From NCBI GenBank assembly GCA_007116635.1, contig SKIB01000134.1, positions 1 to 38,805 on the forward strand: a stretch of DNA of 38,805 nucleotides, in the 5' to 3' direction. Origin of the DNA: Saccharospirillaceae bacterium. GTDB lineage: Bacteria > Pseudomonadota > Gammaproteobacteria > Pseudomonadales > Natronospirillaceae. This document shows, in pieces, positions 36,971 through 38,805 of this stretch (its first letter is position 1; each line of letters opens with the position of its first letter). Below the pieces are notes generated by a model. The model did no database searches and had not been told where the DNA came from. It was given only the letters and a program-made list of their open reading frames with translations. A program made the translations under genes and the position numbers.

Positions 36971-38434
36971 ATGGCTAAGCAGCCCATCGTGATTGTTTGG
37001 CTAAAGCGAGATCTCCGATTGACCGATCACCAGGCGCTAACGGCCGCCGTGCACAGCGGCTATCCAGTGTTGATCTGCTACTGTTTTGAGCCTTGGCAGC
37101 AACAGGACCCGCATTTTGCTGCACGCCACTGGCGCTTGGTGGTGCAGTCGCTGCAGGACCTGCAGCAACAGTTGCAAGCCAAACAGCAACGGCTTTGGGT
37201 GTTCGCCTGCGACTTTAGCCAACTGCTGGCCACCTTGGCGCAAGCCTTTGAGCTAAAGGGGCTGTACAGTCATCGTGAGATTGGTCTGGCCAACAGTTGG
37301 GCCCGTGATCAGGTGGTGGCCCGCCAATGTCACGCCCTTGAGCTTCCGTGGCAACAGTTTTGGCAGCAGGCGGTGCGTCAGGGGTCGCAGGCGCGCAAGG
37401 GTTGGCAAGCCTTTGCCCAGCATCATTGGCAGCAACCTCTATTGCCCATCCCTTGGGCCGAGATGCGCACCGTCACTCAGTTACCAGACAGCTTGACCGA
37501 ATTACGGGTTAAGCAATTGCCCAAGGCTTGGTTGCGGCCCGATCCAAGTATGCAGCAGGGCGGGGAGACTCAGGCCTGGCAGCGATGGGCTTGGTTTGTG
37601 CAGCATGGCCTGAGCCGTTATCGTTCGGCCATCAGTAAGCCTGAGCAAGCGGAGCAGTATTGTTCACGGATGTCGGCCTTTCTTAGTTTGGGCAATCTGT
37701 CCATTCGTCAGTTGCATCAAGCCTTGGCAGCGCACCGGGTCAGTGGCCGTAAGGCCTTGCAGTCGCGCTTGGCTTGGCACTGCCACTTCATGCAGAAGTT
37801 TGAATCCTGTGTACGCATGCAGTTTGCGCCCTTGAATCTGGGTTATCTGCCTCTGTTACAGGCTCAGCAACAGCAGCAGCCGGAAGCGCGATTGAAGGCA
37901 AACTTTCAGGCCTGGGCTCAGGGTCGTACAGGCTACCCCATGGTGGATGCCTGCATGCGTTCCTTGTGGCAAACCGGCTACTTGAATTTTCGCCTGCGCG
38001 CCATGTTGGTCAGCTTTGCTTGCCATCATTTGGCCCTACCCTGGCAATGGGTGGCGCAGCACTTAGCGCGGCTGTTCTTGGACTTTGAGCCAGGCATTCA
38101 TTATCCACAGATCCAGATGCAGGTCGGGTTGACCGGCTTTAATACCCTGCGCATCTATAATCCAGTGCAGCAAAGCCTTAAGCAGGACCCAGAGGGGCGT
38201 TTTATTGTCCGGTACTTGCCTGAGCTGGCTGACTTGCCGCCGCCCTTGCGTCATCAACCCTGGACCATGGGGCCACTGGAGCGTCAGTGGTATGCCTGGC
38301 CTTTGGATTACCCAGAGCCAATGGTGGATCACCTACGTACCGCAGAGCAGGCGCGCAAACGATTATGGCAATGGCGAGCCTCGCTGCAGGTACAGCGAGC
38401 AGTGCCGGAGTTGTTGGCCCAGCAGGTGGATTAG
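36971..38434 (+). CDS. Cryptochrome/photolyase-family flavoprotein, atypical
   Basis: 487 aa. The N-terminal alpha/beta antenna-type domain starts VIVWLKRDLRLTDHQALTAA (about 7-26), the photolyase family signature. The FAD domain shows GRTGYPMVDACMRSLWQTGY (318-337), then NFRLRAML and RIYNPVQQ (394-401), so the fold is complete. Compared by eye with E. coli PhrB, key residues differ: the CPD-contact N341 is F340 and M345 is A344, and the segment FEPGIHYPQIQMQVG holds no tryptophan where W382 and W384 should be. The W359 equivalent (W358) and D372 equivalent (D371) are kept. It may be a cryptochrome or a repair enzyme of another subclass. GGGGG precedes the ATG. It is followed by DUF2256 and a second photolyase-type gene. 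Confidence 0.82.
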   Translation: MAKQPIVIVWLKRDLRLTDHQALTAAVHSGYPVLICYCFEPWQQQDPHFAARHWRLVVQSLQDLQQQLQAKQQRLWVFACDFSQLLATLAQAFELKGLYSHREIGLANSWARDQVVARQCHALELPWQQFWQQAVRQGSQARKGWQAFAQHHWQQPLLPIPWAEMRTVTQLPDSLTELRVKQLPKAWLRPDPSMQQGGETQAWQRWAWFVQHGLSRYRSAISKPEQAEQYCSRMSAFLSLGNLSIRQLHQALAAHRVSGRKALQSRLAWHCHFMQKFESCVRMQFAPLNLGYLPLLQAQQQQQPEARLKANFQAWAQGRTGYPMVDACMRSLWQTGYLNFRLRAMLVSFACHHLALPWQWVAQHLARLFLDFEPGIHYPQIQMQVGLTGFNTLRIYNPVQQSLKQDPEGRFIVRYLPELADLPPPLRHQPWTMGPLERQWYAWPLDYPEPMVDHLRTAEQARKRLWQWRASLQVQRAVPELLAQQVD

Positions 38435-38539: not shown

Positions 38540-38710
38540 ATGCACCATAAATTGACCCTGCCCAGCAAACTATGCCCGGTGTGCCAGCGTCCCTTTGTGT
38601 GGCGCAAAAAATGGGCTAAGGTCTGGCCTGAGGTTAAGTACTGCAGTCAGCGTTGTCGCCGCCAGGGCGGATCAGTCACCCCCACCAACACCCCCTCCAA
38701 GGAGGACTAA
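38540..38710 (+). CDS. DUF2256-family small cysteine-rich protein
   Basis: 56 aa; start ATG 38540, stop TAA 38708-38710. Four cysteines in two pairs, CPVC (about 12-15) and CSQRC (about 35-39), with the central [20 protein letters not shown] segment, are the DUF2256 hallmark and suggest a small zinc-ribbon-like fold. The family is commonly found next to cryptochrome/photolyase genes, as here. A specific role is not established. No clear ribosome site precedes it beyond GAAGAAGAAA. The stop region holds GGAGGA, which serves as the ribosome site of the next gene 4 nt later. Confidence 0.88.
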
Positions 38711-38713
38711 AGC

Positions 38714-38805
38714 ATGAATGTCGCCGAGCTGTTTGATCAGGCGGGCCAGCAACCCGTGCGCGAGCTGCGCTTGGTGCTGGGCGACCAGCTCAATGAGCAG
38801 CACTC
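38714..38805 (+). CDS. FeS-BCP-type photolyase-related protein, N-terminal fragment (cut by window end)
   Basis: Only 30 codons are in the window: a start ATG preceded by GGAGGA at 7 nt, and an N-terminus ending RELRLVLGDQLNEQHS. The LRLVLGDQLN strand is typical of the photolyase-related family that carries an iron-sulphur cluster (PhrB-type bacterial (6-4) photolyases and CryB). The gene begins 3 nt after the DUF2256 stop, so co-translation is likely. The cluster cysteines cannot be seen because the gene is truncated at the window edge. Confidence 0.72.
   Translation, partial: MNVAELFDQAGQQPVRELRLVLGDQLNEQH

Follow-up and report, generated by a model that had tools for sequence, protein, structure and literature searches.

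The photolyase-like gene and its neighbors

The window, by which we mean the whole stretch of 38,805 nucleotides of bacterial DNA that was analyzed, has as its last complete photolyase gene an open reading frame at positions 36971–38434 of the + strand (stop codon included). The gene begins with ATG, has no internal stop and encodes a protein of 487 amino acids, P0001. A Pfam scan of P0001 finds a DNA_photolyase domain (PF00875; E 4.6e-24), followed by an FAD_binding_7 domain (E 4.4e-59). The protein is basic, with 51 lysines and arginines versus 33 aspartates and glutamates. No model was reached in an NCBIfam scan of P0001, the best being crypto_DASH with 151.9 bits versus a cut-off of 317.

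Directly downstream on the same strand is a DUF2256 gene (38540–38710, +) that encodes a small Cys-rich protein of 56 amino acids (Pfam PF10013, E 2.8e-21). It is followed by the first bases of an FeS-BCP-type photolyase gene (38714–38805, +; Pfam DPRP, E 1e-63), which is cut by the end of the contig. The last 121 bases of the window (38685–38805) are identical to the first 121 bases of contig C113, which carries the whole FeS-BCP-type gene (520 amino acids). This identity is probably an assembly overlap, with the gene cluster continuing on C113. Upstream of the photolyase-like gene is a divergent TPR/histidine-kinase-like gene.

The genome to which the window belongs is 2.51 Mb in size and 97% complete. 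Also encoded in it are L001, a class I-like enzyme in which the canonical SWQW motif is present, and L003, a DASH-like protein of 421 amino acids with a score below the DASH cut-off. In the phylogenetic trees described below, L003 groups near DASH with the DASH-like protein of a relative in the same family (L008:3097-4410), on a branch that is very long. On contig C27 (L176:699-1628), there is another DASH-like frame, shortened to 310 amino acids, the FAD lobe of which is missing a stretch; L003 lies on a different contig. This shorter frame is perhaps a remnant or comes from a second strain in the bin.

Predicted fold

An AlphaFold2 model of P0001, made with an alignment of 68 rows, has a mean pLDDT of 95.7 and a pTM of 0.94, and VIA-align gives Z-scores of 35–39 to solved photolyases and one DASH cryptochrome. 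The complete fold that a preliminary description of this gene had proposed from the letters is therefore borne out by the model. The structures matched by Foldseek and VIA-align include class I, class III, DASH and (6-4) enzymes and cryptochromes, and none of the chains among the 50 matches listed by each program is more than 27% identical to P0001. The best PDB sequence match is the Synechocystis DASH protein (1np7), which also has the top profile score among the solved structures; the lowest-scoring PDB matches listed (2xry and others) are presumably class II photolyases. The two domains in the right order, together with the photolyase fold, place P0001 in the photolyase/cryptochrome superfamily. 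As judged from the model and the alignments, the protein has a complete photolyase fold and conserved FAD-site residues, with a rebuilt active site that is uniform in the examined rows.

Residues around the flavin and in the lesion pocket

The reference for the residue comparisons is E. coli PhrB, taken from an annotated record and aligned with MAFFT; crystal numbering equals the Met1 numbering minus 1. The comparison covers 135 rows of the subclass to which P0001 belongs, including the query (132 of them less than 95% identical to each other), and 48 class I and DASH rows, in which E. coli PhrB is present twice, 46 are less than 95% identical and 41 were named DASH by score and not by the NCBIfam model. 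The subclass rows fall into group A (113 rows with the query) and group B (22 rows). Both groups were defined by their BLAST score to P0001, which makes the residue counts partly circular; therefore, the trees and an E-value gap, both presented below, carry the claim of a subclass.

Glu274, Asn341, Met345 and Trp384 of E. coli PhrB are presumably the lesion contacts that class I enzymes use on CPDs, Glu274 being the catalytic one. The catalytic Glu274 is replaced by Arg266 in P0001 (37766–37768, +), and this place is arginine in all 135 subclass rows and glutamate in all 48 class I and DASH rows. Asn341 is replaced by Phe340 (37988–37990, +; phenylalanine in 135/135 subclass rows, asparagine in 48/48 of the others), Met345 by Ala344 (38000–38002, +; alanine in 127 and serine in eight of the 135 subclass rows) and the substrate-stacking Trp384 by Met383 (38117–38119, +; methionine in 135/135, versus tryptophan or tyrosine in 48/48). 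Asn378, which we take to be the residue facing the flavin N5, is replaced by His377 (38099–38101, +), and here, histidine is present in 135/135 subclass rows and asparagine in 48/48 class I and DASH rows. To our knowledge, an Asn, Asp or Cys facing N5 is treated as near-universal in the photolyase/cryptochrome family. The combination of R266, F340, H377 and M383 occurs in all 135 subclass rows and in none of the 48 class I and DASH rows. Three further residues, I376, Q380 and Q384, are also fixed in 135/135; the class I and DASH rows have E at the place of R266, N at F340, S/A/V/T at I376, N at H377, N/S/G at Q380, Y/W at M383 and I/L/V/A/S at Q384.

The tryptophan triad is also affected. Its first member, Trp382, is replaced by Ile381 (38111–38113, +), and none of the 135 subclass rows has a tryptophan or tyrosine at this place (F in 59, I in 28, L in 25, M in 10, V in nine, A in two, and T and C in one each), while tryptophan is present in 48/48 class I and DASH rows. 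The middle member is retained as Trp358 (E. coli W359; 38042–38044, +; tryptophan in 134/135 subclass rows). W306 is absent as well, its counterpart in P0001 being uncertain (Gln297 or Glu305, depending on the alignment), and so, Trp358 is all that is left of the W382-W359-W306 chain in P0001. Because the first triad place has neither Trp nor Tyr, the canonical photoreduction cannot run as it does in E. coli. In triad mutants, FAD is known to remain in its reduced form inside the cell. Tryptophan or tyrosine reaches a frequency of at least 85% in the 135 rows at W269, W315, W358, Y217 and some N- and C-terminal columns that are common to other classes; columns of this kind that are new to the subclass include Tyr378, which adjoins His377, and Tyr396.

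The FAD site itself is retained, with Y217 in 133, R233 and S235 each in 134, and R343 and D371 each in all of the 135 subclass rows. R341 and R394, which are aligned with R342 and R397 of E. coli PhrB (both functional residues, we assume), are also present in 135/135. Two other places, R226 and R278 of E. coli PhrB, which we take to be contacts to the DNA backbone, are Ile221 and His270 in P0001.

The preliminary description, which aligned the protein by eye, had reported F340 and A344 in place of N341 and M345, the lack of tryptophan at the W382 and W384 places and the retention of W358 and D371 (E. coli W359 and D372). The MAFFT alignment agrees with all of these, and it adds the replacements of E274 by R266 and of N378 by H377. 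Residues regarded as lesion and flavin contacts differ from those of E. coli PhrB and are invariant across the clade, which makes a change of substrate plausible.

Two trivial explanations were considered and rejected. An alignment artifact is ruled out because three MAFFT alignments, made separately and each including E. coli PhrB, gave the same residues, and the codon of His377 is read directly as CAT. A decaying pseudogene is ruled out by the open frame and by residues that are fixed across phyla.

Comparison with known classes

The class I and class III CPD photolyases have the same fold as P0001 (VIA-align Z of 35.3 to E. coli PhrB, 1dnp, and 37.2 to Agrobacterium PhrA, 4u63) and both of its Pfam domains, and they have the Trp277 and Trp359 places and the FAD salt-bridge residues in common with the subclass. 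However, the subclass has E274R, N341F, M345A and N378H, has lost W382 and W384, and forms a separate clade. P0001 has Arg/Phe/Ala/Met where the class I lesion contacts on CPDs are Glu274/Asn341/Met345/Trp384, and it is thus not a class I enzyme by its contacts; the class III enzyme of Agrobacterium (4u63), which has E, N, M, W, N and W at six places of the comparison, lies outside the clade, and so, P0001 does not qualify as class III. The CRY-DASH proteins (Synechocystis 1np7) also have this fold, and a DASH gene is sometimes a neighbor of the subclass gene. Unlike the subclass, the DASH rows have E274, N341, N378 and W382 in 41/41, with Q at 345 and Y at 384. These differences and a score under half of the TIGR02765 cut-off (151.9 versus 317 bits) set P0001 apart from CRY-DASH.

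The FeS-BCP prokaryotic (6-4) photolyases belong to the same superfamily and occur in the same gene cluster as the subclass. The preliminary description had listed them among the types with which P0001 might group. However, their N-terminal domain is DPRP (PF04244) and that of P0001 is PF00875, and the FeS-BCP enzyme is a separate gene next door. The eukaryotic (6-4) photolyases and animal cryptochromes have His at 341, where P0001 has Phe340, and the one Drosophila row is outside the clade; the plant cryptochromes have Asp at the N5 place, where P0001 has His377, and the one CRY2 row is outside the clade as well. As for class II, the comparison was by model, and the phr2 model gives P0001 39 bits versus a cut-off of 550.

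Some published work bears on these comparisons. The bifunctional CPD/(6-4) photolyases of the PhrSph98 type are also an unusual bacterial subclass with a changed pocket residue; however, in the accessible part of their description, they are another subclass, with Glu, Asn, Met and Trp retained (E310, N384, M388 and W381), where ours has Arg, Phe and Ala and has lost the triad Trp, so the two are set apart by that description (PMC9649867). A survey of 186 sequences in seven subfamilies describes the triad, in its accessible portion, as characteristic of all subfamilies except class II, and its table of residue pairs, presumably for the 345/384 places, gives H/W, M/W, Q/Y and V/Y, with a blank for plant photolyase and no Ala/Met in the part available (PMC7560933). 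A study of 20 bacteria names no such class in the sections that are accessible (PMC9498864). According to the available excerpt of another report, Phr1 of marine Synechococcus gives E. coli light-dependent survival of UV-C (PMC9426592), and the haloarchaeal Phr1 is described as a protein of unknown function in the available text of two papers (PMC10052015, PMC5626843). We found no biochemistry on the subclass in the open-access literature.

Phylogeny and distribution

Two trees were made, both quick searches with SH-aLRT support only and a midpoint root. In the first, with 76 rows, groups A and B and one Marinobacter protein form a clade with an SH-aLRT of 100. The second tree, to which class III, Sulfolobus, Drosophila (6-4) and Arabidopsis CRY2 proteins were added, has the same clade (43 rows, SH-aLRT 99), within a wider clade of 47 rows that includes haloarchaeal and cyanobacterial proteins (SH-aLRT 99); in this tree, group B, DASH and class I are not each one clade. 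The four solved references in the second tree fall outside the wider clade, and in each of them, place 382 is Trp and place 378 is Asn or Asp. The subclass is thus separate from class I, class III, DASH, a (6-4) photolyase and a plant cryptochrome (SH-aLRT 99–100), and the poorly studied subclass that had been predicted for P0001 has a clade of its own. A gap in E-values is also seen among 293 genomes of one bacterial order, 78 of which, including that of the window, match P0001 at E 3.4e-58 or better; the next best match is at 2.8e-41.

A search of GTDB genomes with the peptide patterns WHCHF[IMV]Q and KRDLRLxDH gave at least 586 loci, of which the best 80 are considered here; the conservation of the two pattern stretches is biased by this search, and R266, F340, H377, I381 and M383 lie outside of them. 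These best 80 of at least 586 loci come from Pseudomonadota (43), Bacteroidota (35), Bdellovibrionota (one) and an unplaced genome (one). Plasmid records add relatives in Alphaproteobacteria and in Deinococcus (Deinococcota). The records name the proteins "deoxyribodipyrimidine photo-lyase", "FAD-binding domain-containing protein" or, in Deinococcus, "uracil-DNA glycosylase". From the sequences, the subclass is a widespread and apparently unstudied branch with the same flavin-site replacements throughout, and it probably still acts on DNA, with altered chemistry.

The sister lineages, from haloarchaeal plasmids (L142, L185) and Nostocales plasmids (L177, L178), combine the same Arg/Phe/Ala at 274/341/345 with Trp382 and with either Asn or Asp at 378. 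They are apparent intermediates, as far as their residues can tell. If the root lies outside the wider clade, this would imply that the change of the pocket preceded the gain of the His and the loss of the Trp, both of which would have occurred on the branch leading to groups A and B.

A few relatives outside these sets deserve mention. The protein of Marinobacter adhaerens plasmid pHP-187 (L141:1995-3512), which is not among the 135 rows, is very divergent and on a long branch; it retains His377, but the places of F340, W358 and M383 are Met, Ser and Val, respectively. In a Pseudorhodobacter protein (L184), also outside of the 135, both the W269 and the M383 place are occupied by Leu. The relative in one genome of the order (G148, contig C2:96106-97538) is split into two frames, either because the copy is broken or through an error in sequencing. 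Among viral contigs, a pattern scan identified a single partial relative of the subclass, 39% identical, on an IMG/VR contig (L189:70-918). Phage records contain no close match to P0001, the best being 31% identical over about half of its length.

Genomic company and fusions

The subclass rarely occurs alone. Among the carriers in the bacterial order, an FeS-BCP protein (PF04244) is encoded by 31 of 32 group A genomes versus 10 of 32 genomes without the subclass, and a DASH protein above the NCBIfam cut-off by 27 of 32 versus six of 32; these two counts cover group A only, and the 32 comparison genomes of the same order were hand-picked and not random. A class I photolyase is present in 31 of the 32 group A genomes, the last of which (G247, 70% complete) has a fragment only, and in 40 of the 41 group B genomes, with none clear in G143; the class I count covers 73 of the 78 carriers. 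In 18 genomes of the named loci, the number of FAD_binding_7 matches is three or four in 17 and two in one Bacteriovoracaceae genome.

The commonest neighbors of the subclass genes are photorepair genes. Clustering places an FeS-BCP-type gene in 35 of 81 loci (the best 80 of at least 586 and that of the window), one member of the cluster having been checked with Pfam, and no signaling gene is among the commonest neighbor clusters of the same 81 loci. Of the best 80 of at least 586 loci, 16 have a DASH gene immediately upstream and one has it immediately downstream; most have no directly adjacent DASH gene. A DUF2256 gene, recognized by a sequence pattern, is directly downstream in 25 of the same best 80. 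In Salinivibrio and Tritonibacter, DUF2256 follows the subclass gene with no FeS-BCP gene in the stretch that was fetched, and the small Cys-rich protein may be a partner of the subclass photolyase. DUF2256 frames are located at 38540–38710 in the window, L138:9574-9735 and L136:4142-4279. In Duffyella, a group B relative adjoins a chemotaxis receptor gene, with no repair gene beside it; this is one case.

Three Deinococcus plasmid proteins (L135:2998-5271, L187:2992-5313 and L186:2947-5265) have, in one frame, a photolyase-like part of group B and a C-terminal domain of the uracil-DNA glycosylase (UDG) superfamily. The domain was found in each of the three that were scanned with Pfam (E 1.7e-16 to 2.3e-15), out of seven Deinococcus rows among the matches listed, all of which are annotated as uracil-DNA glycosylase. 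The three fusions have the same residues as P0001 at the places of R266, F340, A344, H377 and M383, and they lie in the sister group B and not in group A, to which P0001 belongs. No further Pfam domain is present in eight other full-length members (P0001, L100, L009, L138, L139, L137, L136 and L141), and none of these 11 proteins has a signaling domain. A search of the open-access literature gave no paper on a photolyase-UDG fusion.

Possible functions

The reading that we favor, with a probability of about 0.5 and mainly from sequence comparisons, is that the subclass is a specialized DNA photorepair enzyme for a lesion or a DNA state on which the class I, FeS-BCP and DASH enzymes of the same cell act poorly. 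The protein would bind FAD in the usual way, as suggested by the conserved FAD-site residues, would still bind damaged DNA and would use light to undo either a photolesion or damage that lies in a special DNA context. With the electron relay beside the flavin missing, FAD would have to be kept reduced in the cell by other means or photoreduced via another route, and His377 could act as a proton donor or stabilize the flavin in its reduced or radical form. The UDG fusions of sister group B in Deinococcus point to a single repair path in which uracil in DNA is also encountered. The fixed pocket suggests that the enzyme still selects a definite substrate, and both the light-driven repair enzymes that accompany it and the UDG fusion favor DNA as that substrate. 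Some observations point the other way: the losses of E274, N341 and W384 remove what we take to be the class I contacts to CPDs, the R226 and R278 places are changed, and the Duffyella relative has no repair gene beside it. The carriers nearly always have a class I CPD photolyase as well, and so, the loss of an ordinary repair role would be tolerated.

A narrower version of specialized photorepair, which we regard as improbable, is that the substrates are dimers with cytosine or its deamination product uracil. Glu274 of class I acts on the thymine N3-H, and the cytosine ring offers an acceptor N3/O2 face, which Arg266 might meet; His377 would be the proton donor at the flavin, and the enzyme would work with cell-reduced FAD and have no need of the tryptophan chain. 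The Deinococcus fusion could then split the dimer by light and remove the uracil before it leads to a C-to-T mutation.

The protein could also be a CPD photolyase of ordinary function that repairs the same dimers by means of different but workable contacts, possibly when the DNA is single-stranded or the light is of another color; the tryptophan chain would be dispensable since FAD is already reduced in the cell. The complete fold and FAD site, the name deoxyribodipyrimidine photo-lyase in part of the RefSeq plasmid records and the adjacent DASH gene in 17 of the best 80 of at least 586 loci (DASH being active on single-stranded DNA according to the literature) would fit such an enzyme. We consider it doubtful, however, because the replacements of Glu274, Asn341 and Trp384 are each fixed in 135/135 and Met345 is always replaced by Ala or Ser, which is unlike drift, and because nearly every carrier tested already has a class I enzyme; the Ala/Met specificity pair is also missing from the accessible part of the PMC7560933 table. 

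That P0001 is a bacterial cryptochrome, a light or redox sensor that has lost DNA repair and in which His377 tunes the flavin redox cycle for signaling without a tryptophan chain, seems unlikely to us. The loss of the substrate-pocket residues and the changed N5 partner, in which plant CRY2 (Asp) likewise departs from photolyases, are compatible with a sensor, as are its nearly constant status as an extra copy beside true photolyases and the chemotaxis receptor gene in Duffyella. However, the lack of signaling domains and of common signaling neighbors in the proteins and loci listed above, the Deinococcus UDG fusions and the fixation of Arg341 and Arg394 all argue against it. The accessible part of PMC5241685 reports that a Vibrio cholerae mutant without three family members, which may be of other subclasses, retained blue-light transcription; this makes a regulatory role in such bacteria less probable from the outset. 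V. cholerae VcCry2 is called DASH in that paper, and the subclass is absent from four genomes that were examined as V. cholerae candidates. We give still less credence to a light-independent DNA-binding or redox helper with a structural flavin, which would, for example, pass lesions to excision repair. The loss of the photoreduction residue next to FAD and the glycosylase fusion would be understandable for such a helper, but the N5-facing residue and its surroundings are fixed, seemingly beyond the needs of a structural flavin, and the protein keeps the company of light-driven enzymes.

As to the three possibilities raised in the preliminary description, a different photoreduction route is supported by the first triad place, and another substrate remains plausible from the fixed contact changes. 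The sensory role is less supported, in view of the photorepair neighbors, the three UDG fusions and the 11 members without a signaling domain. We therefore return to specialized photorepair as the preferred reading.

Conclusions

The finding is real and general, in that an unusual flavin site is fixed in a widespread clade that is recorded under uninformative names. The clade has a fixed His and no Trp at two places where, respectively, Asn, Asp or Cys facing N5 and Trp next to the flavin are treated as near-universal in the family. Since the sister lineages retain the Trp with the same pocket, the order of the changes can be tested by mutation, and the Deinococcus UDG fusions are a direct lead to the substrate.
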